Shown here one piece after another: positions 11,370 to 30,864 of a stretch of 33,481 nt of DNA (within the stretch, counting starts at the first letter, position 1; every line of letters starts with the position of its first letter). The notes beneath the pieces were generated by a model, which was not told where the DNA came from, did no database searches, and was given only the letters and a program-made list of their open reading frames with translations. Both the position numbers and the translations under genes were made by a program. This DNA is from Hyphomicrobium sp. (GTDB lineage Bacteria > Pseudomonadota > Alphaproteobacteria > Rhizobiales > Hyphomicrobiaceae). The stretch is taken from NCBI RefSeq assembly GCF_020852195.1, contig NZ_JADZBI010000088.1, forward strand, positions 1 to 33,481. The letters are read 5' to 3'.

Positions 11370-11413
11370 TAAGCCGCCTTAGCTCAGTTGGTTAGAGCGC
11401 TAGATTGTGGATC
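11370..11413 (+). repeat. Left attachment site (attL): orphaned 5' half of tRNA-His
   Basis: These 44 bp are identical to 30821-30864. They comprise 3 bp of leader and tRNA-His from its first base through the anticodon GTG and into the 3' strand of the anticodon stem. After base 11413 the sequence diverges completely, so this is a relic that cannot fold as a tRNA. Confidence 0.92.
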
Positions 11414-11423
11414 ACGCTCCACA

Positions 11424-11441
11424 GAAAACATTGATGTTTTC
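11424..11441. repeat. Inverted repeat next to attL
   Basis: GAAAACAT (11424-11431) and ATGTTTTC (11434-11441) form a perfect 8-bp inverted repeat with a 2-bp spacer, 11 bp inside the element. It is AT-rich in GC-rich surroundings and could be a protein-binding site for the integrase or a regulator. It lacks the G+C stem expected of a terminator. Confidence 0.45.
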
Positions 11442-11551
11442 GGCTTCGCTCAGTGTCGCGCCAGGACGGGTTAATAAGCAAGGAATTTCATGTTGTTGTA
11501 GCCGTCAATTCACGTCAGCGCGCGACATGATCAGGCGTGACGCGACGTAAC

Positions 11552-11573
11552 CAGCAGTGACAGGGCAGTGACG
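11552..11573 (+). promoter_or_regulatory. Left-end CAGTGAC tandem pair (probable integrase/excisionase arm sites)
   Basis: Heptamer CAGTGAC occurs at 11555-11561 and 11566-11572, spaced 11 bp (one helical turn). The 22-bp block is repeated exactly at 30748-30769 near the other end of the element. Placement 139 bp from the core site and directly before the integrase gene fits arm-type recombinase or directionality-factor binding sites. Confidence 0.6.
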
Positions 11574-11578
11574 GGGAA

Positions 11579-12832
11579 TTGCCTAGCTGCTATGTCGAGC
11601 ACATGCAGAAGCTCGCTGACAATGACCGCGCGATACGCGGCTGCCGACCGAAATGGGGCCAGACGCGCACTCGTTGGACGATAGACGGCCGCAAGGGCCT
11701 CTATGTAGATGTCAGCGTGAAGCCGAACGCGCCGACCGACGAGACGCAACGCGAGCGCGATGACTTCCGCCGCGTCTATTATTGGCGCGATCAGCGCAAG
11801 GGCGGCGGTTTTGTCCGCCTTGACGACGTAGAGCGTCTTTCGCTCGCCCAGGCGTGGAAGTCGGCAACCGACCGCGCTGCGAATGTAACGCTGCGCGGCC
11901 GCCGCGCGGGCCGCGTCACCTTCGGCAGCCTATTTGACGACTGGCTGAAGCGCCACGCAAAGCCAAACAAAAAGAGCTGGGAAGCCGACGATGCGCTTTA
12001 CAAGCGGCACATCAAAAAGCACCTGGGGAATGCAGTCGTCAGTGAGCTTAAGCGCGGTGACTATGTTGATGTTCTCGACAAGATTGCCCGAGTGGCGAGC
12101 GGCATCCAGGCCAACAGGTCACAGGCGCTCATAACCGCGGTGCTCAATTGGGCCGTGGCTGAGGACAAGATTGACGATCACCCCGCGCGCGGCATCAGGA
12201 AGCGCGCCAAAGAGAAGTCGCGCGACCGCGTGTTGTCGGCCGACGAGATCAAGAAATGGTGGGTTGCTTTGGACGAGCAGGCGACGCCACGGATGGCGCG
12301 TCTGTTGCGACTTCTCTTGCTGACGGGCGTGCGTCTCTCCGAGGCATGCGGGATGGCGCGCGCTGAGATACAGGGTGATCTTTGGGAGATCCCCGGCGAG
12401 CGCACCAAGAGCGGCTTGCCGCATGTCGTGCCGCTCGCGCAAACCGCGGCCGAGATCGTTGCCGCGGCCATCGCCGAAGCAGGCGAGTCCGCGTTCGTAT
12501 TTCCCGCATTCGATCGCCACCGCATGATGGAACAGGCGGTCACGCGCCACGCCCCTGATCGTGCGTATGCGCGCATCGCGGTCAAACTCGAATTCGTTGA
12601 CACGGACGGAAAGCCGAACACCGGCATTCATGACTTGCGGCGCACGATGGCGACCAATCTGGGGCGGCTCGGCATCTCAACCGAGATGATCGACCGCGTG
12701 CAAGGCCGTGGCGCGCGCGGGAGCAAGGTAAGCGGCATCTATAACCGCCACGAATACCTTGCCGAGCGTCGCGACGCGTTAGAGTGCTGGGAGCGCGAGG
12801 TGCGGCGGATTGTGGGGCAGAAGCCGACGTAG
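11579..12832 (+). CDS. int: Tyrosine recombinase (P4-type integrase) of the element
   Basis: A 417-aa site-specific recombinase, expected to integrate the element at tRNA-His. The N-terminal arm-binding region includes RWTIDGRKGLYVDV; a SAM-like core-binding domain spans about 115-205 (TFGSLFDDWLKRHAKPNKKSW onward). The catalytic domain has Arg in LLLTGVRLSEACGM, Lys in ERTKSGLPHVVPL, the His-x-x-Arg box in GIHDLRRTMAT and the Tyr nucleophile in VSGIYNRHEYL. The usual second His of this family, in an LNH-type motif before the Tyr, seems replaced by VQGRG. The start is TTG 11579, preceded closely by GGGG, or ATG 11603; I cannot decide. A perfect 37-bp hairpin follows the stop codon. Confidence 0.92.
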   Translation: MPSCYVEHMQKLADNDRAIRGCRPKWGQTRTRWTIDGRKGLYVDVSVKPNAPTDETQRERDDFRRVYYWRDQRKGGGFVRLDDVERLSLAQAWKSATDRAANVTLRGRRAGRVTFGSLFDDWLKRHAKPNKKSWEADDALYKRHIKKHLGNAVVSELKRGDYVDVLDKIARVASGIQANRSQALITAVLNWAVAEDKIDDHPARGIRKRAKEKSRDRVLSADEIKKWWVALDEQATPRMARLLRLLLLTGVRLSEACGMARAEIQGDLWEIPGERTKSGLPHVVPLAQTAAEIVAAAIAEAGESAFVFPAFDRHRMMEQAVTRHAPDRAYARIAVKLEFVDTDGKPNTGIHDLRRTMATNLGRLGISTEMIDRVQGRGARGSKVSGIYNRHEYLAERRDALECWEREVRRIVGQKPT

Positions 12833-12836
12833 CTCA

Positions 12837-12873
12837 TGCTTGTAGCGCGCGGCGCTGCCGCGCGCTACAAGCA
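12837..12873. promoter_or_regulatory. Perfect 37-bp hairpin downstream of int
   Basis: A 17-bp perfect stem (12837-12853 with 12857-12873) enclosing only GCT starts 5 bp after the integrase stop. The core is very GC-rich. No T-tract follows, so it is not a standard intrinsic terminator. It could end or protect int mRNA, or be a binding site or replication structure. Confidence 0.6.
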
Positions 12874-12987
12874 GCGGCCACAGACGCGATGCGACGTGCT
12901 GAATTCCGCGGATAAGTGCACACAGTTGTTTGATCAGCCAGCAGAGCGCGCGTAGCCTTGCATCTTAGGCAAGGATTGGCGGGCAGC

Positions 12988-13323
12988 ATGCTCAGTTCCA
13001 GTGACTTCGATAGAGTGCAGGGGCACTTCGCGAGCCAAGCACAGGTGCTCAAGCGCTATCAGTGGGGATCAATCGCGGTCGCCGTCGTAGCGCTGGCGTT
13101 TCTCGCCTACGAACCCTCAACGTTGGCCATGGTCGCGTTTGTGGTCGGGTTCGTCTACTGGCGGGACACACGTAATCGGCAGCAGGCGCTGGAACGCGCC
13201 GTGCTCGAGGCGCCCATTCTCATGCAACTCGCAGACAAGGTGGATCGTATTGCAGGCCAATCCGAACCGCGCGCCAATCCCATTAAAGAGTATCTGGCGA
13301 GCCGTCAGAGCGGCGGCGGTTGA
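12988..13323 (+). CDS. Small membrane protein, unknown function
   Basis: A 111-aa protein starting at ATG 12988 (GGCGGG upstream). Two short hydrophobic segments at about residues 27-41 (GSIAVAVVALAFLAY) and 45-58 (LAMVAFVVGFVYW) form a helical hairpin, leaving an N-terminal polar arm and a charged C-terminal tail (RDTRNRQQALERAV ... LADKVDRIAGQ). No family is recognised. It is convergent with the second recombinase gene: its stop ends at 13323 and the other stop begins at 13324. Holin-like, inhibitory or structural roles are all possible; nothing in the sequence decides. Confidence 0.65.
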   Translation: MLSSSDFDRVQGHFASQAQVLKRYQWGSIAVAVVALAFLAYEPSTLAMVAFVVGFVYWRDTRNRQQALERAVLEAPILMQLADKVDRIAGQSEPRANPIKEYLASRQSGGG

Positions 13324-14307
13324 TCAGCCCCGCCCCCGTTTCCCCGCCAACAGCGCAGCCGGATTCACCTTGAACAGCTCGGCTTCCTTCACGTATTCCC
13401 GCACCATGTTCACTGATGCGTGCCCCGACTGGCGCGCCAGCGCCAGCACGTCGAGTCCGTTGTTGGCAGCGTCAACGAGGAAGCCGCGGCGCAGCGCGTG
13501 GCCAGAGAAATCATCGCCCAAACGCGCTTTCACAATCGCGTTGATTGAGTGGCCGCTGATGCGACCGCCAACCTTGCCGTGGCGGTTGATCTGCCGGAAC
13601 AACGCGCCCTCGGCAATGCCGGCCGCCTGCATCCATGCCTGTACGGCTTCAACCGCGCAGGGTTCGCAACCGTAGGGCACGGCGTAACTCTCCTCGCCGC
13701 CTTCCTGATTTGTCTTTGACACGTTCAGGCGGATCACAAGCCCCTCTTTAACGAACTCGACATGGCCCGCGGCGCCGTCAGTGAGTGCCGACGTTACGTC
13801 TAGGCCGGCAAGCTCGCTGCGCCGACGCGCTGCCCAGAAGCCCAACAGGATGATTGCCCGGTCGCGCAGCCCGCGCAGATCATCCCCGAACTCGGGGAGC
13901 GTGGCGTCCAGCACTTCGCGCGTCGCGGCCTTGGCCTTCCTGGGCTTGCGCTTGTTGAGCCGACGCACGCCGTCCATGACGCCCTCATAGAGCGACGTGT
14001 CGAAGCCGACGCCGGCGTGCCGGTGCGCATGAACAATGGCCGCGAGATGTGTGTTGATCGTGCTGGGGGCAAGCCCCCTGCGCTTCAGGCTCGCGAGGTA
14101 CGCTTTGACGTGCTGCGGCTCGGCTGGCATGGGCCGCGCGCCGCGCGGCGCGCACCATTCCATGAAGGCCGCGAAGCACCGTCCGTATAACCTGCGTGTT
14201 GAGTCCGCTCGGGCACCCCGTAGCAACTCGCGCACCTCCTCAACCTCATGCTCTGCAAGCAGGTTGTAAGGGCCGTCATTCTGCAGTGCCAGCGTGTTCA
14301 TTCTCAA
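13324..14307 (-). CDS. Second tyrosine recombinase (XerC/D-like)
   Basis: A 327-aa recombinase, unrelated in detail to the element's P4-type integrase. The core-binding domain spans about residues 16-115 (ADSTRRLYGRCFAAFMEWC). The catalytic domain keeps every expected residue: Arg162 in AARRRSELAGL, Lys198 in VSKTNQ, His270 and Arg273 in GHALRRG, His296 in QSGHASVN and Tyr305 in MVREYV. It should be active. Proteins of this short type often act on plasmid dimers, integrons or as a second integrase. The start is probably ATG 14301 (MNTLALQN) or ATG 14307. Two recombinases of different type in one 19-kb element suggest either a composite history or a dedicated dimer-resolution or DNA-inversion function. 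Confidence 0.9.
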   Translation of the reverse strand: MRMNTLALQNDGPYNLLAEHEVEEVRELLRGARADSTRRLYGRCFAAFMEWCAPRGARPMPAEPQHVKAYLASLKRRGLAPSTINTHLAAIVHAHRHAGVGFDTSLYEGVMDGVRRLNKRKPRKAKAATREVLDATLPEFGDDLRGLRDRAIILLGFWAARRRSELAGLDVTSALTDGAAGHVEFVKEGLVIRLNVSKTNQEGGEESYAVPYGCEPCAVEAVQAWMQAAGIAEGALFRQINRHGKVGGRISGHSINAIVKARLGDDFSGHALRRGFLVDAANNGLDVLALARQSGHASVNMVREYVKEAELFKVNPAALLAGKRGRG

Positions 14308-14974
14308 TCCCCCGATGCTTCTGGATTACGAAGACTTCAATTTGCGTAAGTCAGAATCAGGGGTGTTGTCGAGTGGAATTTCTGTTGCTGCTGCGCCCCA
14401 AAACCAACGAAGCGCCGACACGGTTTCCCGTATCAGCGCCTCTGAGTCACACGGGTGATGCAGCGCCCTGCCGGCTCGATAACGGAGTCAGGTGACAACT
14501 GTTCCGCGCAACCCCCGCTGCAGAATCCGAAACCCCCACTCGCCTGTGGCCAGCTGTACGAAGTACCGCCAGCCACCAGCACGCAGCAGCGCGCGCCCAC
14601 ACGGTGCACGTCGTCGGCGCCGGCAGCAGCTGGCGCAGCATACGGCGCACGGGGCGGCCGGGGGCGTCGCGCGAAGGGACCCGGCGCGGCCGGGGTGCCG
14701 GCGGACCCGCCCCCGGGCTTGAGCCCAAGGGAACCCATCTCGATGGAACTGCACGGGTACCAGATACCAGCGCGCTCACGCATAGGGCGCAGACTCGGGA
14801 GGGGTGGCGGGTTCTTGCCGACGAAATGCGAGTGGGAGACGCGGGCGCAGAAAATTTTCTGGGAAATTTTACTGGGTCGCTTGTAGGCGCAGTGGACAAG
14901 TCTCGGAAACCGTTGCGACACGCAGCTGGCGCGCACTACCCATTGTGATGAGTTCAAGCAGGGTGTGACCCCCA
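14308..14974. other. 667-bp region without a convincing gene; structured and compositionally split
   Basis: This is the longest apparently non-coding stretch of the element. Its middle (about 14590-14730) is extremely GC-rich with runs such as CCCGCCCCCGGG and the near-palindrome GGGCTTGAGCCC. Near 14851-14876 it switches to AT-rich direct repeats AAATTTTCTGGG and AAATTTTACTGGG. Frames open here (for example 14455-14886 plus, or 14488-14754 minus) give biased, non-protein-like translations. A replication origin for the nearby primase-helicase, or a structured RNA, are both possible. Confidence 0.4.
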
Positions 14975-15934
14975 ATGGCGAACCCGGCGCATAGAGACTT
15001 CCGCATAGCCACAGCAAACGAGTTCGCTAGGCTAGAACAGCGGTACAACTCGACCTTGTTCCAGCTTTTCAGTATTGACCAAGAGCTTGTCGATCAAATC
15101 GGCGAGTTGTGTGGCGCGCTCACTGTGGGGCATCCGCCATTCCCGATCGCCCTGCATATAGTTGAGTTGAGGGGCTTCAAAGCTCCAAAGGTTGAGATAG
15201 TTCGTAGTCCCTCCAGGCCGGTGACACTCACCGCCAAGTTAGGCGAGCTATCGCTTCCTGATGGAAAGTACCTTTCTATCTGCGCTCCGGTCGTTCACAC
15301 CAATACCGGCACGCAGGAAAAGGAAGCCCGCGAGGCGATTGCCCGCTCACTGGGGTTGTTTGTTGCCTCACTCGGGCGAGGCTTCCTCATTGGTAGAGCG
15401 GCAGAGTTCGTCGTTGCCGCCGGAGATGAGCTTCGGCAATCGTTCATCAGCGACGCGATCCGCGCGCCTCAGGCGTGGGACTTCGCGCGATGGGGGCACT
15501 CAACTGACTTATCAGACCTTGCGAAGGCCATTGAACTGTCCGACGCCGATTTGCGGAGTCGGATTGCTTACGGTGCATCGATCTTTGGTCGCGCGGCGCT
15601 CGAGCATGACGATACCTTTAGATTCACGCTTTATTGGTTGGCTTTGGAGGTCATCGCCGATGGTGGAGAAAAGGAAGTCACAGGCCACCTCGCGAACGCC
15701 TACAACATCGATTTGAAGGCCGTTCGCGATGGTTTGGAATTGCGGCATTGCATACGGATGCGAGCGGATCTTTTTCACAAGGGCCAGCCGCCGCAACTAA
15801 CGCCGCGTACAGAACGCCTTTTGCAGGGGTTCTTTTTGGATCTTCTCCGCTACGAGCTCGGTTTGCCCTGTAACAGGCTTGTTGAGCAGTTGATTGCATC
15901 GGAGGCCCGCACGGCAAGTGCGGGGATGCCGTAA
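14975..15934 (+). CDS. HEPN-like protein (Apea-type), putative ribonuclease
   Basis: A 319-aa soluble protein. The C-terminal third resembles the HEPN helical bundle of the Apea group. A helix with FTLYWLALEVIADG is followed by RMRADLFHKG, in which Arg263 and His268 make the R-x4-H motif of catalytic HEPN RNases, and then a closing helix, ERLLQGFFLDLLRYELGL. The first 190 residues match nothing I recognise and may sense a trigger. HEPN RNases are common effectors in abortive-infection and toxin-antitoxin systems. No nucleotidyltransferase antitoxin gene is adjacent; the gene stands alone. ATG 14975 has only a weak Shine-Dalgarno. The family assignment is by motif and helix pattern, not by search. 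Confidence 0.6.
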   Translation: MANPAHRDFRIATANEFARLEQRYNSTLFQLFSIDQELVDQIGELCGALTVGHPPFPIALHIVELRGFKAPKVEIVRSPSRPVTLTAKLGELSLPDGKYLSICAPVVHTNTGTQEKEAREAIARSLGLFVASLGRGFLIGRAAEFVVAAGDELRQSFISDAIRAPQAWDFARWGHSTDLSDLAKAIELSDADLRSRIAYGASIFGRAALEHDDTFRFTLYWLALEVIADGGEKEVTGHLANAYNIDLKAVRDGLELRHCIRMRADLFHKGQPPQLTPRTERLLQGFFLDLLRYELGLPCNRLVEQLIASEARTASAGMP

Positions 15935-15953
15935 ACATCTGCCCGCCTCCTCA

Positions 15954-15982
15954 CCGAAAACCGCACACCGCTCCTGTACAAT
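15954..15982 (+). promoter_or_regulatory. Candidate promoter for the virion-type operon
   Basis: TACAAT at 15977-15982 matches the sigma-70 -10 box in five of six positions. A poor -35 (CCGAAA, 15954-15959) lies 17 bp before it. It is 33 bp upstream of the TTG start of the 62-aa gene and is the only good -10 box in the 80-bp gap. Confidence 0.35.
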
Positions 15983-16014
15983 GATGCCCACAGCATCAGC
16001 CGCAGGAGCACCTG

Positions 16015-16203
16015 TTGTCCGACAAGGTCAGAACGAACCACCTCCGCCGCCTTGCCCACCGCGCCGGGCTGCGGATCTCCACGCTGAACACGCCCGCCGG
16101 CCGCATCTTCGCCGTGATCGACGGCAGCCGCATTGTCGTGACCTGCGTCGGTTTTGAGGCCGTGTCGCAGCAGCTGGCTGCCCGGCAGCAGGCTGCTGCA
16201 TGA
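16015..16203 (+). CDS. Small basic protein, unknown function
   Basis: A 62-aa protein starting at TTG 16015, chosen because AGGAG at 16004-16008 lies 6 nt upstream. An N-terminal basic helix (RTNHLRRLAHRAGLRISTL) is followed by a beta-rich part (GRIFAVIDGSRIVVTCVGF) and an Ala/Gln tail. It is first in a same-strand run with the amber-split ORF, the 68-aa gene and the 734-aa gene. No family is recognised. Confidence 0.6.
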   Translation: MSDKVRTNHLRRLAHRAGLRISTLNTPAGRIFAVIDGSRIVVTCVGFEAVSQQLAARQQAAA

Positions 16204-16226
16204 GAACTCAAAGGGAGGAGTAGAAG

Positions 16227-16304
16227 ATGGACCCCTACGGACCGCCAATGCCGAACGCGTTGAACCTCATCGGAAAGCTGACCCTGGATCAGAAAGACCG
16301 CTAG
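16227..16304 (+). CDS. 25-aa ORF, amber-terminated, in frame with the next ORF
   Basis: ATG 16227 follows AGGGAGGAG (16212-16220), the strongest ribosome binding site in this part of the window. It encodes MDPYGPPMPNALNLIGKLTL followed by DQKDR and an amber TAG at 16302-16304. The same frame stays open afterwards (codons for QSQRR) into the 83-aa ORF, which lacks its own binding site. The likely original gene was one 114-codon ORF with a CAG-to-TAG change. Alternatively the two parts are translated by reinitiation or by amber readthrough. Confidence 0.5.
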   Translation: MDPYGPPMPNALNLIGKLTLDQKDR

Positions 16305-16319
16305 CAGAGCCAGCGCAGA

Positions 16320-16571
16320 ATGGCACTCGCAGGCGCGCTCATGAATCAAAATATGTCTCAAGGCGCGGGGGCGTTCGAAGGGCTCATGTCAGGGGCCAGC
16401 AAGGGGCTCGGCACGTCGATGTTTCTGAGCGAGTTGGGCAATGCCCGAAAGGGCTCGGGCGCGTCGAGAAACGACTCCAGTTGGGGCAGAGGCTTCGGTG
16501 AATCCGCATTCGGCCCTGACAGGATCGGGATCCGTGACGGCATCCGAGGCTTGCTCGGGTTGTCCAAATGA
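16320..16571 (+). CDS. Gly/Ala-rich phage-type protein, downstream part of amber-split ORF
   Basis: Eighty-three codons from ATG 16320 with no Shine-Dalgarno of its own. The translation has a Gly/Ala/Met-rich amphipathic segment (MSQGAGAFEGLMSGASKGLG) and a flexible Ser/Gly tail ending in IRGLLGLSK. Such compositions are frequent in small internal or head-associated phage proteins that precede ejection-protein genes; this is an analogy, not a match. It is in frame with the 25-codon ORF upstream across one amber codon. Its stop overlaps the next start (ATGA at 16568-16571), so translation of the following gene depends on ribosomes arriving here. Confidence 0.55.
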   Translation: MALAGALMNQNMSQGAGAFEGLMSGASKGLGTSMFLSELGNARKGSGASRNDSSWGRGFGESAFGPDRIGIRDGIRGLLGLSK

Positions 16572-16774
16572 TGACGCCTGAAGAAACGGACGCCCTCATC
16601 GTCGAGTGCAGCGAGGCCGAGCTGGGCGTGCACATGTTCGTCGGCAAACTGAAACAGCTGAATGCAGCCGGCATGGATCTCGGAGTGACTCCCGAAATTC
16701 TCGAAACCGTGCTGCTGATGATCAATCACTTCTATGGGCGCCTCGTCGTGCCGCCCGAGGGAGCGCCCAATTGA
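16568..16774 (+). CDS. Small acidic protein of the virion-type operon
   Basis: A 68-aa protein, MMTPEETDALIVECSEAELG then a helical region ending HFYGRLVVPPEGAPN. Its start overlaps the stop of the preceding ORF by the ATGA junction, and its stop TGA overlaps the ATG of the 734-aa gene in the same way (16772-16776), so all three are translationally coupled. Predicted mainly alpha-helical with no membrane segment. Its function is unknown. Position and coupling suggest a partner or chaperone of the large protein downstream. Confidence 0.65.
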   Translation: MMTPEETDALIVECSEAELGVHMFVGKLKQLNAAGMDLGVTPEILETVLLMINHFYGRLVVPPEGAPN

Positions 16775-18978
16775 TGGCCGAGAAGACCAAGAAGCCGGCT
16801 GGCATGTTCGACGACTTGATCGCCGAAGCCGAAGCCGCGCGGCCGAACCGCTTCACGAAATACGCACCCGAGGTCACGACGACGGGTAGCAATCGGTTTG
16901 CGAAGTATGCGCAGCAGCCGCAAGGTGGCAATTTCTTCGATCAATTCGACGAGCCGCGGAAGCCGAATTTCTTCGACCAGTTCGACGAGGACGATAGGGC
17001 TGCTGCTGCAGCACAGGGTGCGCAAGCACCGGGTGCTGCCGAAAGCGTGCCTGAGCGCGGCTTAATCGAAGGCATCGTGAGCGACGTGCGGAACATGCTC
17101 GGTTACGAGCAGACGCCGCAAGAGAAAGCGCAGCGCGCAAAGGCGCACGCGAAGTTCGAAGAGGATCGCGGCGGGGGCGGCTGGAAGGATACGCTGTTCT
17201 CGAAAGACGGCGCTCGCCTCGTTGCACAAGGAGCCAGCCTTGGGTTAGCGGATGAAGCAGAAGCCGCGATCCGATCGCTCGGCAGTGAGACTTACGATCA
17301 GGCGCTCGAGTCCATCCGCAACGACCTCGCCGCGGCGCGCAACAAGCCCGGCAGCCTGTTGCTCGAAATGGGAGCGGGTGCGCTCGTGCCGGGCGGCGCC
17401 GCTGTGCAGAGCTTGCGCACTGCGCCAAGCATTTGGCGCGCGGCGAAATACGGCGCAGGGCTCGGCGGCGCTGCCGGTTTCGCTGGCAGCGAAGGCGCGT
17501 CCAATCCCGACGCCACGATGGCCGATCACCTTGCCGAGCGACTCCCCAATGCCGCTTTCAGCGCTGCGCTCGGCGGCACCGCGGGCGCCGTTGTTCCGGC
17601 TGTCGGCGCAGCTGGTCGCGCGGCGACAGGCATCGCCGCGGCGCGGTTGGGCATCGGCAGCGAGAAGTTCGCGCGGGAAGCTTTGGCCGACGCGTTACGT
17701 GCCGAAGCCCGCGCCAGCGGGCGCAGCACAGACGCTGTATTGCAGGAGCTTGAGGACACGGGGCTGCCGCTTGCGCTGGCGGGCAATCAGTCCGTGAATC
17801 AGCTCGCGCACCGGGCGGCCGAAGCGTCGCCGGTTGCTCGGCGTCAGCTCATTGACACCATTGCGGACGCGGAAGGCGGCGCAGGTCGTCGTGTCGAGCG
17901 CGCCATTGATGACGCCATGGCCGGCGAACGGGCCGGCGATGTCGCATTCGCCATTCAAGATGCCCGTCGGCTCGGCGCGAGCCGTGGTTATGACGCACTC
18001 TATGGGCGCAACGCCGTGTCGGACATGAGCGCTGCTATCGACCCCACACGTCCGACCATGCAGGCGGCGATCAATCGGGCGAACCGCTGGATCCGCGACG
18101 AGAACGGACTCGAGATCAATGACGTGTCCGCGATGACCGGCAAGCAAACCGACTACCTGGTTCGCGCTCTCGACGATGCGGTGGACAGAGCATTTCGTTC
18201 GGGCTCTGGTCAGCACGGCGCCCGGCTTGCCGAGCAACGCGACAACTTCCTGCGTTCGGCATATCAAGCCCGCCCGGAGTATCGAGACGTGCGTGCCGCC
18301 TATGCCGCCGACAGCGATAGCCTACGCGCCATCGAAGCAGGACGCGGCGTGAAGCTGAAAGACAGCGCGGGCACCGAAGAATTCACGGCGCAGCTTGCCG
18401 ACATGGCCCCCCGTGATCGGCAGTACGCACGTCTCGGCGTGCTGCAGAACCTCCGGGATGACGTGCGCAATACTGCGACTGCGCCGAACGCCATCAGGAA
18501 CGTGGCAGAGTCGCCCGCTCGTGCGCGCAACCTCGCGGATATCCTTTCACCGTTGGCCGACGAGACTGCGCCCGTGCTGGGCAATCGGCAGCGTGCTGCA
18601 CTCGAGTCTCTGCCCGGCGTGATCGACAGGGAAGCCAGGGGCGTGCGCGGGGCACAAGCACTGAGACAGAACTTCCCCGACCACACTGGCGGGCTCAGGG
18701 CCGCGCTCGCCGGCGTCGATCCGTCGAGCGTGGCGACGCAGCCGAAAGCGTCGCTCACCCGCATCGCTGCACGCTACGCGTTGGACCCCATGAACCCCAA
18801 GCGCGCTGCACTTGTCTCTCAGCTTCTGCGTGACGATTGGCACCGCTCGATACCGCAGATCCGACGGCAGCTGGCACAGCGCGGTGTTGATGTTGGTGCG
18901 CTCACGACGCGGTGGAACGCTGCGCTGGCTGCGGCGGGTGCCAGCGGGCACGGGTATCGGCCGGCGCCGGTGCAGTAG
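16774..18978 (+). CDS. Putative phage ejection (internal virion) protein
   Basis: A 734-aa protein. The start ATG 16774 overlaps the previous stop. The N-terminus has short repeated linear motifs: NRFTKYA and NRFAKYA, then FFDQFDE twice. Short Phe/Asp repeats of this kind are characteristic of DNA-transfer proteins of podophages and related prophages. A long Gly/Ala-rich hydrophobic segment follows (about residues 145-300; GASLGLADEAEAAIRSLGSE and GAGLGGAAGFAGSEG), suited to membrane insertion. The remainder is a long Ala/Arg/Asp-rich helical domain with many RAVD- or DAVDRAF-like helices. The assignment comes from architecture and gene order; no single diagnostic motif proves it. An intrinsic-type hairpin ends the operon 22 bp downstream. 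No portal, capsid or tail gene accompanies it. Confidence 0.62.
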   Translation: MAEKTKKPAGMFDDLIAEAEAARPNRFTKYAPEVTTTGSNRFAKYAQQPQGGNFFDQFDEPRKPNFFDQFDEDDRAAAAAQGAQAPGAAESVPERGLIEGIVSDVRNMLGYEQTPQEKAQRAKAHAKFEEDRGGGGWKDTLFSKDGARLVAQGASLGLADEAEAAIRSLGSETYDQALESIRNDLAAARNKPGSLLLEMGAGALVPGGAAVQSLRTAPSIWRAAKYGAGLGGAAGFAGSEGASNPDATMADHLAERLPNAAFSAALGGTAGAVVPAVGAAGRAATGIAAARLGIGSEKFAREALADALRAEARASGRSTDAVLQELEDTGLPLALAGNQSVNQLAHRAAEASPVARRQLIDTIADAEGGAGRRVERAIDDAMAGERAGDVAFAIQDARRLGASRGYDALYGRNAVSDMSAAIDPTRPTMQAAINRANRWIRDENGLEINDVSAMTGKQTDYLVRALDDAVDRAFRSGSGQHGARLAEQRDNFLRSAYQARPEYRDVRAAYAADSDSLRAIEAGRGVKLKDSAGTEEFTAQLADMAPRDRQYARLGVLQNLRDDVRNTATAPNAIRNVAESPARARNLADILSPLADETAPVLGNRQRAALESLPGVIDREARGVRGAQALRQNFPDHTGGLRAALAGVDPSSVATQPKASLTRIAARYALDPMNPKRAALVSQLLRDDWHRSIPQIRRQLAQRGVDVGALTTRWNAALAAAGASGHGYRPAPVQ

Positions 18979-19000
18979 GCTCTTGCATCGGAGCGGACAT

Positions 19001-19030
19001 GGCGTCGGTAGTGTTGCTACCGACGCCTTT
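19001..19030 (+). terminator. Hairpin terminator of the virion-type operon
   Basis: An 11-bp perfect stem, GGCGTCGGTAG (19001-19011) with CTACCGACGCC (19017-19027), loop TGTTG, followed by TTT. It lies between convergent genes and can serve the plus-strand operon; the T-tract is short, so efficiency may be modest. Confidence 0.7.
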
Positions 19031-19040
19031 CGATGCGCCG

Positions 19041-19829: not shown

Positions 19830-19961
19830 TGGCAGGCCCTCTTACGACTGTGCGCTGGGCGCAGTTCCTGCTGAGTCTTTGCCCCCATCAAGGTGTTCAG
19901 CGGCTATATCGACAGGATTGTCGCCACGTCTCGACGGCCTTAATGCCTGCCCCCCTTGCGC

Positions 19962-20273: not shown

Positions 20274-20485
20274 CGGCGGTAGATGCCCATGCGGTCGTGA
20301 CGGTCGCGGGCGTCGGCGAACAACTCGATTGCCTGCGCCAGTCGCTGGCGTAGCGTGCGTTGCTGCCAGAACGGCGCGTTATCGAAACGGCGTAGCAGCT
20401 CGGCCTCGGCGGCTTCGTTGCGCCCCAAAAGGGCGTACAGGACCACCACGTGATCGGGATCGATGTCTGTTGGTTCACGGGCCAT
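20270..20485 (-). CDS. Small hypothetical protein in four-gene operon
   Basis: A 71-aa protein from ATG 20485 (MAREPTDIDPDHVVVLYALL). It is predicted helical with a charged C-terminus (FADARDRHDRMGIYRR) and no membrane segment. It overlaps the preceding gene by 11 bp and the following gene by 4 bp, as expected for a coupled operon. No family is recognised. Confidence 0.5.
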   Translation of the reverse strand: MAREPTDIDPDHVVVLYALLGRNEAAEAELLRRFDNAPFWQQRTLRQRLAQAIELFADARDRHDRMGIYRR

Positions 20486-21109: not shown

Positions 21110-21119
21110 TTACGGCCTC

Positions 21120-25358: not shown

Positions 25359-25475
25359 ATCGGGAGGGGAATTACGCGGGGGGCGACATGGGGATAATCT
25401 GGGCGGCATCGCATCAACAGCCCCGGCCCGTGGTATTGATCAGCCTAGTGATTGAGTCCGAAGGCGGAGACAGCA

Positions 25476-25646
25476 ATGCTGGAAATCCTCGCGACCGTCA
25501 TACTGATCGGCCTCATGCTTGTGCCGCTGGTCAACGTTCTTGTTGGCGTAGTTGCCGGCTTCATGCTGTTCGGCTTCTTTGGCGCGATCGCGGGGTTCGT
25601 GATCGGCGCGGGGCTGACAGGAATGATGACAGACGGTTTTCACTAG
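25476..25646 (+). CDS. Small two-helix membrane peptide
   Basis: Fifty-six codons from ATG 25476 (GGAG at 25466-25469, 6 nt upstream). Two hydrophobic helices, LATVILIGLMLVPLVNVLVG and FMLFGFFGAIAGFVIGAGL, are joined by almost no loop, and the tail TGMMTDGFH is short. Size and pattern would suit a holin, a pore-forming toxin or an inhibitory membrane peptide; the sequence alone does not decide. It sits 117 bp after the primase-helicase. Confidence 0.6.
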   Translation: MLEILATVILIGLMLVPLVNVLVGVVAGFMLFGFFGAIAGFVIGAGLTGMMTDGFH

Positions 25647-25704
25647 AGATCGCATTCAATCTGCGCAGCAGCCAGGAAGCCGGGCCAGCCCCCTGACGTG
25701 CGTC

Positions 25705-26244
25705 TCATGCGGACGCAGGCTGCATCGCCCCCACCGCTGTCCTGAGTCCCTCGATCACGCCCACCATGGCGTCTACGTCCCCCGGCGCGGCGGTGCGCAG
25801 TTGCTCGGCAGCGAAGTCGCACGCGAGGTCAACGGGGGGCCAAGCGCGCCCAAGCCGCTCGGCAGCCTGCTGTTCGATGTCGTGCTGGACGGGTAGGCGG
25901 AGGCCCATCGCGAGCCGCATGCGCTCCGTGAGGCGCGCCTGGGCCGCCTCAACCGCGGCGTGATGTGTGTCGGCATCAGCATCTGACCACGTTTGCGATG
26001 CGACCGCGGTCAGATCCTCGATGGCCGCCTCCACAGCCCACGCGATACCGAAGCTCTGCGACTTGCCGCGTGCCGCCTCTGCGTACTTGGTAATCTCGGA
26101 CACGATCTCGGCCGGCGCACGCCGGACAAAACGCGGCGTGTCCACGCATCCGTCTTCGACAAAGATGGCCGTCTCGCCCACGGCCGACTGGTTATCGGTT
26201 TCAACCCAGGCGCCACGCCCAGCTTGCATATGAATGACGATCAT
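25705..26244 (-). CDS. Hypothetical soluble protein
   Basis: A 179-aa protein. ATG 26244 overlaps the stop of the HTH-protein gene upstream (ATGA), so they form a coupled pair. The N-terminus (MIVIHMQAGRGAWVETDNQS) is beta-like and includes VETDNQSAVGETAIFVEDGC. The rest is Ala-rich and helical, with many charged residues. There is no signal peptide or membrane segment, and no family is recognised. Confidence 0.65.
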   Translation of the reverse strand: MIVIHMQAGRGAWVETDNQSAVGETAIFVEDGCVDTPRFVRRAPAEIVSEITKYAEAARGKSQSFGIAWAVEAAIEDLTAVASQTWSDADADTHHAAVEAAQARLTERMRLAMGLRLPVQHDIEQQAAERLGRAWPPVDLACDFAAEQLRTAAPGDVDAMVGVIEGLRTAVGAMQPASA

Positions 26245-26657
26245 GAGAGTTTCCTTTTGCTCGTTGAAGTAACGTCATGAAAACTCGAGGATTCGTCACG
26301 CCAGATCAAGTGTTTTGGAAACGCTACATCTTGGAGTGTTTGCCGTTCGATTTTAGAAATACTGGTGCGGCTAACGTCGAATACGCGAGCAATGGACGCT
26401 ATGCTTCCCCCGGCTAAGTTGAAATAGAATTGCGAGCGGGCCAGATTTCTGAGCGAATTCAGCAAAAGCGTTCCAACGCCTGCGCGCCGACACCATCCCC
26501 GGGGCACCTGCTCCGCCCCAGCTCTTGCATGCGTGAGCGCGGAAAATCGGGGCGCAGACTGGCCACGCTGGGCCGCGTCGTGGGACCACCGATGCATGTC
26601 CGAGCGACGCGCGCGCCGGCAGTGCATGACCAGCAACGAGTCGGCAACGCGACTCAC
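26241..26657 (-). CDS. Helix-turn-helix protein (start uncertain)
   Basis: The reliable part is the C-terminal 75 residues. GGSIASIARVFDVSRTSISKIERQ is a clear helix-turn-helix with the recognition-helix pattern VSRTSISKI found in phage HNH-type and repressor proteins; a basic tail follows. GTG 26657 gives 138 aa, but the first 60 residues are Arg/Ser/Cys-rich and not protein-like, so the true start is probably further in (for example near 26500). Overlap of its stop with the next ATG supports translation. It may regulate the divergent membrane-wHTH gene at 26740. Confidence 0.5.
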   Translation of the reverse strand: MSRVADSLLVMHCRRARRSDMHRWSHDAAQRGQSAPRFSALTHARAGAEQVPRGWCRRAGVGTLLLNSLRNLARSQFYFNLAGGSIASIARVFDVSRTSISKIERQTLQDVAFPKHLIWRDESSSFHDVTSTSKRKLS

Positions 26658-26739
26658 GTATCATTAAACGCATACGGCGCCACCCTGGCAGGTCGCGCCG
26701 CACACTTGAAGCTCACCTGCGGTAACAGGAGAACTCCCG

Positions 26740-27969
26740 ATGACTACGCGTAGCGCCCTTTCCGGCGCGAATCCAGCGCGCAATGCGCCTACACCTAACG
26801 ACGCCTCAAAGCCTTCGGCATTGCAGCCTGTTGCGCATATCGGCGCAACCAACTGCAACACTCCCGACGCCAACAAGCCGCTGCGCTTGGCACTCCTGGC
26901 TGCAGGCTTGCTCTTGGCGGCCGTTTCGATCGCCTTGGCAGCATCGGCTGGCTACGCAAGGGGTGCGACTCAGCTTGAGGCTGTGGTCTGGTCGGTCGCA
27001 GGAATCGCCCTCGCCATTGTCTCTCTGACCGGCCTCGCTGCCGCGATTTCGACACGCGGCACAATGCGTCGCGCGGCATTCACCGCATGGCTGATCGCGC
27101 TCGCTTTCGTGATCGTGGCGGGCTTGGGCAGCCAGCATGGGGGGCGCGAGCTGGCCACACGCACCGATAACGCCACGACCGGCGACCGCACGCGCGCCGA
27201 GGCTGTGTACAAGCGCGCCGCCGCCGATCTCGCCGCGCTCCCCGCGGCACGCCCGGCCGGCGTGATCGACAACGAGCTGGCGGTGCTGCTGAAGGACACG
27301 CGCCTGCGCGGGTGCGCCGGCTGGCTCGAAAGCAAGCGCCTCCGCACCGTCTGCGTGGAGAAAGTCGAGCCCCTGCGCGCCGAGCAGTCGATAGCGCATG
27401 AGCGCCAGCGACTGCAGCAGACCATGGACAACGCCACCGCCGCGCTCACCGCCGCCAAGCCGACGACGCCCGCGAATTCGGACGCCGCCGCCGTCGCCCG
27501 CTACCTCGCGGCGCTGGGTGTCGTGCTCCCTGTCGATCGGCTCGCGGATTTGATCAGCCTGTTAACGGTTGTGGCGATCGAAGTCGTCGGCGCAGTGGCG
27601 CTCGCGCTCGGTAGGCAGCACCCTGTGGCGCAGCCACCAAGTGCTGCGGTGAACGTTCACGAACAGCCGCGCGACGGGGGCGCGCTGACGCTGCAGGCGC
27701 CTGTGAACACGCCACCCCGGCCCGGTGTTCAAAGCCTGCCGAATCGGGGCCTGAACGCGGATACGACGGCGACGATTGAACGCTTGAAGGCGCGCATCCT
27801 TGGCGATCTTGAACGCGGCCCGCGTGCATGTTCACAGCGTGCGCTCGCTGGCGAGTTCGGCGTGTCGGTTGGTTACGTGAACAAGGCGCTCAAAGAGCTT
27901 GCGCATGGTGGTCGCGTTAACGTGTTGGCGTCTCGCGTAGGGACGCGGCTCGAGCTTGCGACGGCATGA
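26740..27969 (+). CDS. Membrane protein with C-terminal winged-helix domain
   Basis: A 409-aa protein with AGGAG 10 nt before ATG 26740. Three transmembrane helices at about 48-70, 79-103 and 112-130 are followed by a roughly 135-residue charged coiled-coil-like region with a Cys pair near Trp (CAGWLESKRLRTVC, 192-205). A fourth helix spans about 269-290 (ADLISLLTVVAIEVVGAVALAL), and a Pro-rich linker leads to a winged-helix domain at 343-405 (RACSQRALAGEFGVSVGYVNKALKEL). The DNA-binding end should be cytoplasmic if the four helices span in series. A membrane-anchored regulator, or an anchor for the element's DNA, are both plausible. No family name is certain. Confidence 0.7.
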   Translation: MTTRSALSGANPARNAPTPNDASKPSALQPVAHIGATNCNTPDANKPLRLALLAAGLLLAAVSIALAASAGYARGATQLEAVVWSVAGIALAIVSLTGLAAAISTRGTMRRAAFTAWLIALAFVIVAGLGSQHGGRELATRTDNATTGDRTRAEAVYKRAAADLAALPAARPAGVIDNELAVLLKDTRLRGCAGWLESKRLRTVCVEKVEPLRAEQSIAHERQRLQQTMDNATAALTAAKPTTPANSDAAAVARYLAALGVVLPVDRLADLISLLTVVAIEVVGAVALALGRQHPVAQPPSAAVNVHEQPRDGGALTLQAPVNTPPRPGVQSLPNRGLNADTTATIERLKARILGDLERGPRACSQRALAGEFGVSVGYVNKALKELAHGGRVNVLASRVGTRLELATA

Positions 27970-28121
27970 CAATCACGGGCGGCGCCTACGGGCGCTGCTT
28001 CTTGCTTGACGGCAAGGGCCTCGCATATCAGGCGGTCAGAGTGTTGCACTCAGCGAACTACAAGGCGCCAAGCGGGCCAGTCTCAGTGCAGAAAGATGTA
28101 CTTTCCGAGTGCGCCGACTAG
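27966..28121 (+). CDS. Possible 51-aa coupled small ORF
   Basis: ATG 27966 overlaps the stop of the membrane-wHTH gene (ATGA). The ORF runs MTITGGAYGRCFLLDGKGLA and on to TAG 28119-28121, overlapping the 3' end of the convergent minus-strand gene by 39 bp. The coupling and the sensible composition argue for translation; the overlap and lack of any known relative argue against. Confidence 0.35.
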   Translation: MTITGGAYGRCFLLDGKGLAYQAVRVLHSANYKAPSGPVSVQKDVLSECAD

Positions 28122-28817
28122 ATTGTCGTAAGTGCCTCGCACCTCACTCAAATGTTCACTTTTGAAGTCAAGCCACGCCTGCGCAGGTGAGTTGTCCCCC
28201 TCTTCGCGCTCAGAGAACGTCACTCCGAAAATCCTCAGCTGTTTCCGAACTTCGGCTTGCCATTCAGCGCTCGCGTGAGTCTCTGCCCCTTCGGTCACAA
28301 CGGTCGCAAGGTTCCGACGCGCCCGAGGAAATTGGCGACAAGCAATCTCCATATAGATAACCGCCGCCCCGACCTCCGGTCCCAATAAATCAGTTGCCAG
28401 CTTGTGAAAGGTCAGCAGTTTTCGCTGCGCATCGTCGCACTCCGCAACTCTCCGCGAGCCCTCTCCGGAAAGAAAGTATTCGATAATATTCGTATCTGGC
28501 ACCAGCAGTTTATCCTTAAGGACCACCGGAGCGCAGGCACGGCGCGCAGCGTGAAAAGAGTTGTCTGCGACACGCAGTATTTCGGAAGCAAGATCACTGC
28601 GTCTTCTTGCATTCTCTTGCCTCTTCCATACCGATAACGCGCGGCTGGCAATCACTGCACCGCAGAGAGTCCCAAGCCCCTGCATCCAATCTGTTATGTT
28701 CCCGCCTCTCAGAAACCAGATTGCAGCTTCCGAATTGATCGAAACAGCCAGCAGAATCGCGAGGACGGCGCAGGAAACGATTGCGATCGGATCAACCCAG
28801 GAATGGTATTCTTCCAC
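28083..28817 (-). CDS. Membrane protein with large cytoplasmic domain, unknown
   Basis: A 244-aa protein starting at GTG 28817, with GAGGTG on the minus strand about 6 nt before it. Two transmembrane helices at roughly 8-27 (VDPIAIVSCAVLAILLAVSI) and 45-63 (MQGLGTLCGAVIASRALSV) precede a soluble helical domain of about 180 residues rich in Arg, Glu and Ala (KRQENARRRSDLASEILRVA ... EIACRQFPRARRNLATVV). This membrane-hairpin-plus-helical-domain plan is found in many uncharacterised bacterial proteins. It is convergent with the preceding gene. Function unknown. Confidence 0.7.
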   Translation of the reverse strand: MEEYHSWVDPIAIVSCAVLAILLAVSINSEAAIWFLRGGNITDWMQGLGTLCGAVIASRALSVWKRQENARRRSDLASEILRVADNSFHAARRACAPVVLKDKLLVPDTNIIEYFLSGEGSRRVAECDDAQRKLLTFHKLATDLLGPEVGAAVIYMEIACRQFPRARRNLATVVTEGAETHASAEWQAEVRKQLRIFGVTFSEREEGDNSPAQAWLDFKSEHLSEVRGTYDNLVGALGKYIFLH

Positions 28818-29058
28818 GGCAACACCTCAATGATGCAACAACGGTCGAGCTTGACGCGTACTCGATCATGACGCCGCCGTCGAACGCGCGTCGATCAATC
28901 ACGAGCGGATGCCGGTCCCTGCTAACGGCGGAGTCGGATTGGGGGCCGTGGCTGCACGGGGTGCCGGAGGAAGCATTCGCGGTATGCCGCCCGTGCGCGG
29001 CGGATCGAATGTGGATCGCTGGGGGCGGGTTTCGAGAAGCGCGACATTGGCGCAGGGC

Positions 29059-29226
29059 TCATTCGATGAGCCATTTGGCGGTTTCAGGAGTCAGGATCGC
29101 CAACGAGAAAAAGAGCAGTGCGCCCATCATAATGGCGGAAGTAATCACCATCCCAAGACCAAATTCGCGATCGGACGGGGTTCGCTGCTTTTCGGGGTAC
29201 AGCCGGGACCAGTCTTCATCGCTCAT
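29059..29226 (-). CDS. 55-aa single-helix membrane protein
   Basis: A short gene with GGGAG on the minus strand 5 nt before ATG 29226. The acidic/basic N-terminus MSDEDWSRLYPEKQRTPSDR is followed by one transmembrane helix, MVITSAIMMGALLFFSLAIL, and the tail TPETAKWLIE. No family is recognised. It lies 52 bp after the lipoprotein gene on the same strand and is probably cotranscribed with it. Confidence 0.55.
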   Translation of the reverse strand: MSDEDWSRLYPEKQRTPSDREFGLGMVITSAIMMGALLFFSLAILTPETAKWLIE

Positions 29227-29278
29227 TTCGACTCCCGATAGGCGTCAGTTGTCAAACGCCACCAGAAGAACCTCATGC

Positions 29279-30040
29279 TCAACTGGCCACTTGCTTTACG
29301 GCAAACTCGTGCATTTCGCCTGCGAACTCCACTTGCACGATGTACTCGGTCGGTCCTTTGGTCGGATGCGTCAGGCGGTCAAGTACGACCGTGCCACCGT
29401 ACCATTCGCCAGGGAGCACCGTGTTGTCTTTGAGGATCGTCTGCTGAAGGCCGCTCAGATTGCGCTCGCCTTCAATGCGAAGTCGATCAAAGTCATTCGC
29501 TGTTTCCGCGTTCGCAGCCTGCTGTGCGATTTGCGCGCGAAGCGGATCGTATGTAGTCGCGGTGTAAGTCCCGTACGCTCGCCCGCCGTAACCGTAGGTG
29601 TTCACACCGCCTGTTGAGGTAACATAGCCGGCGTTGGCGGCCGACATTGCTCGAGCCGTTCCCGACAGCACCGCTGCGAACGCCTGGACTGCTTGCTTGT
29701 CCTTTTCCTCCTGCACAAGCTCGTCGTATCGATGCACGCGAACGGCGACATGCTTGCCTTCAACGTTTTGCCGCGCCGAGATAGAGGACTCGAGAAGGTC
29801 ATGCGGCGCGCCGCTCATATTGTTGACGACGATCGTGAACGCTGGCCGGGCGCTTCCGTCTATGACGCGCGAATTGGGCTTAAGCATCACGACGTGCTTC
29901 TTGCGCGAAACTAAGGCGGGCACGCCGTCGCGAATGATGGATTCTTGTCCGGGTGCAGCCGCCAAGTGGATCGTTTGTGGTTGAGAACAGCCAGCGGCAA
30001 GTAATGCAAACGCACAGGTAGTTGCGGATCGCAATAACAT
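29279..30040 (-). CDS. Putative lipoprotein
   Basis: A 253-aa exported protein with a lipobox: ATTCAFALLAAGC, cleavage before Cys18. ATG 30040 follows a G-run (GGGGGG). The mature protein begins SQPQTIHLAAAPGQE and has a central region rich in Ala, Gly, Tyr and Thr (STGGVNTYGYGGRAYGTYTA). The C-terminus looks like a beta-sandwich (LPGEWYGGTVVLDRL ... EYIVQVEFAGEMHEFAVKQ). It should be anchored in the outer or inner membrane. Surface exclusion or phage-receptor masking would fit an integrated element, but nothing in the sequence shows it. Confidence 0.72.
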   Translation of the reverse strand: MLLRSATTCAFALLAAGCSQPQTIHLAAAPGQESIIRDGVPALVSRKKHVVMLKPNSRVIDGSARPAFTIVVNNMSGAPHDLLESSISARQNVEGKHVAVRVHRYDELVQEEKDKQAVQAFAAVLSGTARAMSAANAGYVTSTGGVNTYGYGGRAYGTYTATTYDPLRAQIAQQAANAETANDFDRLRIEGERNLSGLQQTILKDNTVLPGEWYGGTVVLDRLTHPTKGPTEYIVQVEFAGEMHEFAVKQVAS

Positions 30041-30140
30041 TGTGTCCCCCCAACATTCATGCGTGAAATGAGGGGAAGAGTAGATCCGTTAACGCACGAG
30101 TCGCAACACGCGTCGCGATTGTGGGGGGATGCCCTGTGGG

Positions 30141-30701
30141 CTATCGCAGCGCATCATCCGCAAGCTGTTGATTCAGAATGCCGATAGCAACAGCACGGCG
30201 ATCCTCGTCGGTGCCGCCCAACAGCGCGTCCGCATGATCTCCACAGAGATGCTGCGCGATCGGTAGTAGCACCGGCATCAACCCGGCCGCGACGAGCATC
30301 GCCGGTACTTGCTCGAGCTGTGCAAACGCATCTGCGGTCAGCGGTACATTGACCGAGACGAATGAGCCAGTCGGCAGCGCGACGCCTGCGCGTCGCGCTA
30401 ATTCGGTGGCAGCGTCGGAAATGACATCCTGAAGCTGTTCGGCTTTGAGCGTCGTCGGATCGGTCACTGCGCGGTCACTGATAGCGGCGATCTGATCGGC
30501 GTTCCTCTGTTCAAGCCATTCGACGATCACAGCCAGCCGCCAGCGGTTTTCCTTGGTTGGAATCCCGTCCGGCTTTGGGAACTTGCCACGCGCCATCAGG
30601 CGCTGTATCTGACGCCTATCCAAGCCAGTCGCCTCGGCAATTTCGACGTAGCCGACGTATCGAGGTAGCTCTGTACGGGCAGCAGTGACGGCATTGGACA
30701 T
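30141..30701 (-). CDS. Putative excisionase / recombination directionality factor
   Basis: A 186-aa protein at the right end of the element. Residues 14-62 form an AlpA/MerR-like winged helix: YVGYVEIAEATGLDRRQIQR, then LMARGKFPKP, then an RWRLAVIVEWLEQRN segment, the usual pattern of excisionases. The remaining 120 residues are helical and not recognised, unusually long for an excisionase. Its gene and upstream region contain inverted GTCACTG heptamers (30463-30469, 30474-30480, 30711-30717) and direct ones (30683-30689, 30751-30757, 30762-30768), suggesting that it or the integrase binds here, possibly with autoregulation. Start ATG 30701. Confidence 0.65.
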   Translation of the reverse strand: MSNAVTAARTELPRYVGYVEIAEATGLDRRQIQRLMARGKFPKPDGIPTKENRWRLAVIVEWLEQRNADQIAAISDRAVTDPTTLKAEQLQDVISDAATELARRAGVALPTGSFVSVNVPLTADAFAQLEQVPAMLVAAGLMPVLLPIAQHLCGDHADALLGGTDEDRRAVAIGILNQQLADDALR

Positions 30702-30747
30702 GTTGCGACCGTCACTGATTTGCGGGTAAGCCGCAAGCTCGCGTGAG

Positions 30748-30769
30748 CAGCAGTGACAGGGCAGTGACG
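30748..30769 (+). promoter_or_regulatory. Right-end CAGTGAC tandem pair (probable arm sites)
   Basis: Exact 22-bp copy of 11552-11573, with CAGTGAC at 30751-30757 and 30762-30768 (11-bp spacing), 52 bp from the core site. Pairs at both ends in the same orientation are expected for integrase or directionality-factor arm sites. Confidence 0.6.
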
Positions 30770-30776
30770 AGTAGTG

Positions 30777-30805
30777 TTGACGGTGACGAGCTACAGTAGC
30801 TAACT
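30777..30805 (+). promoter_or_regulatory. Candidate element-supplied promoter of tRNA-His
   Basis: TTGACG (30777-30782), 17-bp spacer, CTAACT (30800-30805). Initiation about 7 bp later would leave a leader of about 11 nt before the tRNA at 30824. It lies wholly inside the element, so the working tRNA gene now depends on it. Confidence 0.5.
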
Positions 30806-30820
30806 CACTGTAATTTCTTG

Positions 30821-30864
30821 TAAGCCGCCTTAGCTCAGTTGGTTAGAGCGCTAGATTGTGGATC
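30821..30864 (+). repeat. Right attachment site (attR) within tRNA-His
   Basis: Identical to 11370-11413 over 44 bp. The element contributes this 5' half; the chromosome contributes the tRNA 3' half from 30865. Confidence 0.92.

Follow-up and report, generated by a model that had tools for sequence, protein, structure and literature searches.

How can an element that has entered a tRNA gene come to rebuild the front of that gene rather than its back? The question is raised by a contig from the draft genome (4.24 Mb, 267 contigs) of a Hyphomicrobium sp., in which a 19.45-kb unit lies between a dead 5' half of tRNA-His and a complete tRNA-His gene; the window analysed here is the whole of that contig (C96, NZ_JADZBI010000088.1; 33,481 bp). 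An earlier reading of the letters without database searches, hereafter the sequence-only reading, had described 5' restoration as uncommon relative to 3' restoration, which is correct, but such islands have been documented before: Islander lists 159 islands with a 5' fragment and 3,760 with a 3' fragment among 3,919 (PMC4383910), and 9 of 88 phage-related islands of Sinorhizobium meliloti restore the 5' half (PMC11476347). The best explanation overall, and very probably the right one, is that the unit is an integrative element whose lambda-type integrase docked in reverse at the anticodon loop of tRNA-His by way of an inverted core.

Three features define the boundaries of the unit:

11370 to 11413, forward strand: left junction, a dead 5' half of tRNA-His (tRNA nucleotides 1-41 plus 3 bp upstream) that adjoins the integrase gene; copy of a direct repeat identical at 44/44 positions
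30821 to 30864, forward strand: right junction, the element-borne 5' half; second copy of the 44/44 direct repeat
30824 to 30900, forward strand: complete, restored tRNA-His(GTG); no other was found in the genome (ARAGORN, genome search, RF00005)

The repeat copies start 19,451 bp apart and cannot be extended at either side, and theirs is the longest and the sole perfect repeat among 16 direct-repeat families listed for 11300-30950 at a minimum length of 18 nt. The right copy consists of 3 bp followed by positions 1-41 of the tRNA-His(GTG), which is the one tRNA that ARAGORN calls in the window. The left copy carries the same 44 bp and then diverges, identity stopping after tRNA position 41, 2 nt beyond the anticodon loop. 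The anticodon arm itself (stem CTAGA, loop TTGTGGA, stem TCTAG) is a perfect inverted repeat around the 7-nt loop. When an 80-bp tRNA-His query was compared with the draft genome, it matched in full only at the restored gene, the other two rows being the dead half and a 21-nt match, and ARAGORN, run on the loci of the 46 RF00005 matches in the genome, returned a single tRNA-His. The 44-bp repeat, the assignment of its left copy to a dead 5' half and of its right copy to a complete tRNA-His, and the position of the boundary in the anticodon arm, all proposed in the sequence-only reading, are thereby confirmed. The guanine-plus-cytosine content is 62.4% inside the element, 66.3% in the left flank and 62.4% in the right flank.

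An uninterrupted counterpart of the site is present in relatives. The left flank, with genes for YceI, an ABC permease, a solute-binding protein and a histidine kinase, leads to an intact tRNA-His in the same-genus genomes G001-G004, in G006 the permease adjoins an intact tRNA-His, and all seven same-genus relatives have the gene intact. Joining the two window flanks yields a complete tRNA-His that is identical to that of G004 over 80/80 bp, and in G003 a single alignment (77%) spans 189 window bases, from the promoter motif described below through the whole of tRNA-His. A search for tRNA-His in the family covered 103 genomes, 100 of which gave a match, and the statements that follow rest on the matches listed. 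None of them showed this dead 5' half in a relative that lacks the element, an arrangement that the sequence-only reading had held to be incompatible with integration. A long 5' fragment of tRNA-His away from a contig end occurs in the window genome only; the only other row above 95% identity that covers just the 5' half is that of G105, whose contig ends inside the gene, and the fragments of G105 and G140 were both dropped on account of contig ends. Fragments of the 3' part away from contig ends were listed for G009, G018, G026, G064, G067, G074, G102, G110 and G123. The 3' side of tRNA-His varies among the relatives: in G005 (G005:C3:237761-252998) and G007 (G007:C3:1570179-1584000) a distance of about 14-15 kb, occupied by other genes, separates the histidine kinase from tRNA-His, and in G007 the 3' end of the tRNA adjoins an open reading frame that we take to be a serine recombinase. 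Both genomes were considered as carriers of a similar element and rejected, as the examined stretches hold no second tRNA-His half.

The ends of the unit are organised as follows:

11546 to 11573, forward strand: left arm-type repeat with two CAGTGAC units (28-nt repeat, 93% identical to 30742-30769)
11603 to 12832, forward strand: tyrosine integrase beside the dead half (PF00589, 4.3e-15; start chosen by alignment)
30141 to 30701, reverse strand: AlpA-like protein at the end next to the restored tRNA (PF05930, 2.5e-4, 21.3 bits against a cut-off of 21)
30742 to 30769, forward strand: right arm-type repeat (28-nt repeat and CAGTGAC clustering)

The integrase matches phrog_1 (integrase, 3.2e-49) and scores far under the cut-offs of the Xer models, which makes it a non-Xer tyrosine recombinase. 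Measured inwards from the junctions, the 28-nt repeat lies at about 130 bp on the left and about 50 bp on the right. Its CAGTGAC unit, a motif picked post hoc after the repeats had been listed, occurs nine times in the window on both strands, eight of these within 568 bp at the two ends and two of the eight inside the AlpA gene. Repeats of this kind on either side of the core resemble the arm-type sites of a lambda-type attachment site, attP, and may be where Int and Xis bind. The AlpA-like gene lies 122 bp from the restored tRNA; its product, which among the PHROGs matches excisionases (to 4.7e-8), the DNA-binding phrog_597 (1.6e-8) and, weakly, the terminase-small-subunit phrog_57 (2.1e-5), is probably an excisionase or regulator. 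The integrase, the AlpA-like gene, the end repeats and the intact loci in relatives together support the earlier proposal that integration took place in the anticodon arm and restored the 5' half.

How unusual this arrangement is becomes apparent from the relatives of the integrase. For the best 80 integrase loci of a longer match list, all on genome contigs, a library of 119 tRNAs was used to identify the best-matching tRNA fragment in the 1.3 kb that precede the integrase match. At 52 of the 80 loci this fragment is a 3' part antisense to the integrase, mostly from the anticodon arm onward and in some cases starting about 10 nt later; at two it is a 5' half in sense (L158, tRNA-Gly; L170, tRNA-Ser), and at none is a 5' half in antisense the best match. 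Locus L170 had been tallied by script as "other, sense", the BLAST match running to position 49, and was counted as a 5' case since direct comparison gives 40 bp of identity. With G009, described below, the elements with a sense-oriented 5' half number three besides that of the window. Whichever of the two main arrangements is present, 3' antisense or, as in the window, 5' sense, it is the anticodon side that lies towards the integrase. A further 80 loci, on viral contigs, hold more remote integrases (identity mostly 25-30%) and did not enter the counts, except that L200 was included in the first tree; L200 was later dropped as a 5' case because the tRNA model scores a weak full-length tRNA there. 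Because the geometry differs at several of the viral-contig loci, where the integrase is preceded by a sense-oriented 3' half of tRNA-Thr, the orientation rule is claimed for the nearer relatives only.

The opposite end of the element shows the same reversal. AlpA matches outside the window number 16, from 14 genomes of the family, and eight of the 16 loci hold a tRNA called by ARAGORN. At seven of these eight the AlpA gene follows the 3' end of the tRNA on the same strand (tRNA-Pro four times, tRNA-His twice, tRNA-Arg once), and at the eighth the tRNA is a questionable tRNA-SeC on the opposite strand. The AlpA-like gene of the window instead precedes the 5' end of the tRNA and points away from it. 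Genome G026 offers the conventional form at the same target, with an AlpA homologue just 3' of an intact tRNA-His and, on another contig, a dead tRNA-His 3' half beside an integrase that is 41-44% identical. In the direction of the integrase the window loop reads TTGTGGA and that of G026 (L114) TCCACAA, the reverse complement, as if the two elements presented the same module with the overlap inverted.

The further 5'-restoring islands show the integrase end in the form seen in the window. In Phenylobacterium (L170/L332, NZ_JANINU010000084.1) there is a 40-bp repeat, a dead tRNA-Ser 5' half stands beside the integrase, and the complete tRNA-Ser(TGA) lies about 19.96 kb from it on the same contig. 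One contig of G009 carries tRNA-Tyr, then a dead tRNA-Gly(TCC) 5' half and then the integrase; on another contig an AlpA gene (PF05930, 1.1e-8) lies just upstream of a complete tRNA-Gly and points towards it, and the open reading frame after that tRNA presumably encodes EF-Tu. At L158 a tRNA-Gly(GCC) 5' half stands with the integrase; neither the locus nor 16 stretches of the genome, among which some of its 45 tRNA matches fall, revealed the opposite end. In L088 (G009:C44) the integrase of the tRNA-Gly 5' island is followed closely by a dead tRNA-His 3' half at 7028-7071, which suggests stacked or tandem elements.

These arrangements can be accommodated by a simple scheme. A lambda-type tyrosine integrase would recombine inside the 7-bp anticodon loop of tRNA-His, 7 nt being the size of the classical overlap region (PMC8371274). 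The element's attP would run, as in its relatives, from AlpA through arm sites, the tRNA-half core and further arm sites to the integrase, the core alone being inverted. Because the anticodon stem is palindromic, its two half-sites would be equivalent, and the identity of the loop, as overlap, would set the direction. With the loop inverted, the element would enter the other way round, so that its AlpA end meets the 3' half of the tRNA; for this reason that end would have to supply a 5' half and a promoter, while the integrase end would be left with the dead 5' half and the native promoter. A second copy of the tRNA might have allowed the first flip at a single-copy gene to survive, as might integration in the wrong orientation with subsequent imprecise excision. 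No weight is given to an inverted 6/7 match to the anticodon loop directly behind the core, since one of this kind occurs in 3.4% of random 50-nt stretches.

Two promoter candidates bear on the scheme:

11271 to 11298, forward strand: native tRNA-His promoter motif TTGCAG-N16-CTATAA, before the dead half (conserved in same-genus relatives)
30777 to 30805, forward strand: candidate element promoter TTGACG-N17-CTAACT, 18 nt upstream of the restored tRNA (own scan with two -10 consensuses, 9/12)

In the form TTGC(A/C/G)G-N16-CTATAA, which was written after the flanks of the relatives had been viewed, the native motif begins 44-213 bp upstream of tRNA-His in seven of seven same-genus relatives and in neither of two from other genera. 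It is absent from the 400 bp upstream of the restored tRNA-His; standing only at the dead half, it has therefore been lost to the restored gene, which must use element DNA and is probably transcribed from it. Among random 122-bp stretches drawn from the window, 1.3% attain the 9/12 scored by the candidate element promoter. At the other end the host tRNA promoter points through the dead half into int, with no terminator-like site found between the motif and the gene, and int may well be transcribed from it. Standard promoter and terminator scans of both element ends returned nothing.

Several observations weigh against reversed docking of a shared module. The candidate element promoter is weak, and the standard promoter scan finds none in its place. 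The four 5' cases are few, and the survey of 80 loci also contains 19 loci with no tRNA fragment, three with other antisense pieces and three with a full tRNA, as well as a lone exception, L173, where a tRNA-Pro 3' half lies in sense (9365-9413), perhaps derived from a neighbouring element. Both in G026 and in G009 the element ends lie on two contigs, and their pairing is our inference. In L170/L332 neither of two open reading frames scanned near the restored tRNA-Ser is AlpA-like, so that the module is seen at the integrase end only. A first tree of the integrases, with L200 included, required five changes of orientation, against a mean of 4.9 for shuffled labels. On the right flank, the CadC-like gene was sought close to tRNA-His and found neither in 20 stretches examined nor in any of the seven relatives from the genus; G001 (43%) and G007 (41%) have long matches to it and G004 a 94% partial match, all on contigs other than that of tRNA-His. 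The sequence-only reading had expected an intact tRNA-His joining both flanks in relatives, and since the right-flank gene does not lie beside tRNA-His there, synteny bears out this expectation on the left side only. Finally, the full catalytic set of tyrosine recombinases is R-K-HxxR-H/W-Y, and the window integrase has R, K, HxxR and Y with an Arg in place of the second catalytic His (motif RVQGRG). In 83 aligned rows this column holds 80 His, one Gln, one gap and the Arg of the window as its sole Arg, which makes the present activity of the integrase uncertain.

This substitution is also an argument for regarding the island as an immobile relic, integrated as described above and since fixed by loss of integrase activity, a possibility that we consider real if somewhat improbable and that is compatible with the proposed origin, so that the two need not compete. 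It would fit the absence of any close copy of the element's 1304-aa protein from 396 other genomes of the order and from viral, phage and plasmid searches. On the other side, the integrase frame is intact with the remaining catalytic residues in place, the end repeats are still identical at 44/44 positions and the arm repeats are preserved.

A different history would be that the 5'-restoring elements did not arise by flips of a shared module but form an old integrase lineage of their own, with a mode specific to it. A tree of 83 integrases, 56 of its rows labelled, calls for four changes to account for the four 5' cases, and a tree with the four as a single clade is rejected (approximately unbiased test, p = 1.3e-5), the group having been named after the labels were seen. 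The window integrase falls in a set of ten rows with 98% support (Shimodaira-Hasegawa-like approximate likelihood ratio test); its nine set-mates comprise five with an antisense 3' half, one with a shorter antisense piece, L173 with its sense-oriented 3' half, and two that show no fragment. This was a quick tree, and its long branches and modest support in parts, together with the small number of 5' cases, leave a separate lineage some room, yet we regard it as unlikely. That docking direction has flipped repeatedly among related integrases while the order AlpA-core-Int stayed fixed, each flip yielding a 5'-restoring island with the tRNA on an element promoter and, where the native promoter is kept as in this window, int under the host tRNA promoter, is in our judgement an evenly balanced proposition. 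Gain of the 5' half by homologous recombination or by duplication of the tRNA region, in place of site-specific integration, is highly improbable: the non-syntenic right flank in relatives does indicate some rearrangement near the site, but identity stops in the anticodon arm as in many relatives, the integrase and arm repeats adjoin the element ends, and the tRNA-Ser and tRNA-Gly 5' islands share the geometry of the integrase end.

The remaining genes of the element bear on its kind:

13324 to 14307, reverse strand: second tyrosine recombinase, XerC-like below the NCBIfam cut-off (PF00589, 4.9e-11)
16606 to 18978, forward strand: phrog_5880 protein (8.3e-30)
21444 to 25358, forward strand: 1304-aa near-orphan protein with weak helicase or origin-binding similarity (phrog_3712, 1.1e-4)
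26740 to 27969, forward strand: protein with C-terminal winged-helix similarity (sub-threshold GntR/HTH_24)
29279 to 30040, reverse strand: lipoprotein-like open reading frame, judged by eye (no Pfam or PHROG match; 61% identical homologue in the tRNA-Thr island of G006)

The unit carries the Islander signature of a tRNA island, being bounded by a complete tRNA and a cognate end fragment in direct orientation, with a tyrosine recombinase outside the Xer class inside it and an uninterrupted site in relatives, syntenic on the left flank only. Among the scanned open reading frames, from which small overlapping ones were left out, no Pfam or PHROG match to portal, capsid or tail proteins was obtained, as a prophage would have given, and none to a relaxase or type IV secretion, as expected of an integrative and conjugative element. 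Phage satellites, such as P4 or phage-inducible chromosomal islands (PICI), combine Int, an AlpA-type regulator and a replication module and lack a capsid set of their own. The window element has Int and the AlpA-like gene, and its candidate replication protein is weakly supported: the 1304-aa protein, perhaps such a protein, has weak matches in three of the 396 other genomes of the order and none by tblastn in phages and plasmids, among PDB sequences or in a scan of viral contigs, and provides the one weak match that PADLOC gives for ten element proteins (PbeA, 0.0012). A 790-aa element protein found no match by tblastn in phages, and a viral-contig scan with the integrase as sole query yielded no relative. 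In the best explanation the unit is an integrative element without recognised conjugation or capsid genes, perhaps a phage-satellite-like or phage-derived island.

Some of this gene content recurs elsewhere. G006 has a conventional 14.5-kb tRNA-Thr island with a 49-bp repeat and a dead 3' half beside the integrase. Like the window element, this island has the lipoprotein-like gene (61% identity over 240 aa) and encodes a phrog_5880 protein (L372, 12032-14116); ten open reading frames scanned in it gave no capsid match. Neither island gave a capsid, portal or large-terminase match alongside phrog_5880. A G409 prophage has its homologue (L373, 8899-11100) behind terminase, portal and capsid genes, flanked by a protein weakly similar to DNA-ejection proteins (8.2e-5) and by a tail fibre. 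As a lead only, the window element and the G006 island may be satellite-like islands that carry a lone phage ejection-type protein; single-sequence tblastn is too insensitive to gauge how often phrog_5880 occurs without capsid genes.

Among known systems, the 5'-fragment islands of Islander (PMC4383910) are likewise tyrosine-integrase islands that split a tRNA gene, leave its 5' fragment and restore the gene, with a counted class of anticodon crossovers; the passages surveyed of that report count 5' islands, and an explanation by reversed docking of a shared AlpA/Int module was not found in them. The main text of the Sinorhizobium meliloti study (PMC11476347) does not contain the word promoter, and no orientation analysis was found in the parts surveyed. 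Archaeal pTN3-type elements (PMC8371274, PMC5495485) use the 5' half of the tRNA as attB and part the restored tRNA from its original promoter, as here, but their own integrase gene is split on integration, whereas the window element has an unbroken int next to the dead half. For bacteria, PMC8371274 describes a new tRNA promoter as seldom met, citing Williams 2002. Nearest at hand are the conventional 3' islands, G026 at tRNA-His and G006 at tRNA-Thr, which have a related integrase and an anticodon-arm fragment like the window element, and share with it the AlpA-like gene at the restored tRNA (G026) or the lipoprotein-like gene and phrog_5880 (G006), but restore the 3' half and so lie in the opposite direction relative to the tRNA. 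In the titles, abstract openings and passages that made up the literature surveyed, a repeated flip of docking direction with a fixed module was not found described.

Taken together, tRNA islands that rebuild the front of their target have, in that literature, been counted more than explained, and reversible docking of a shared module would provide a simple and testable cause for them. Reversed docking predicts a promoter swap at an essential gene, the only tRNA-His being expressed from mobile DNA and the host promoter being turned towards the integrase. If this is true, a host with a single-copy essential tRNA would depend on the element it carries unless that element is excised precisely.

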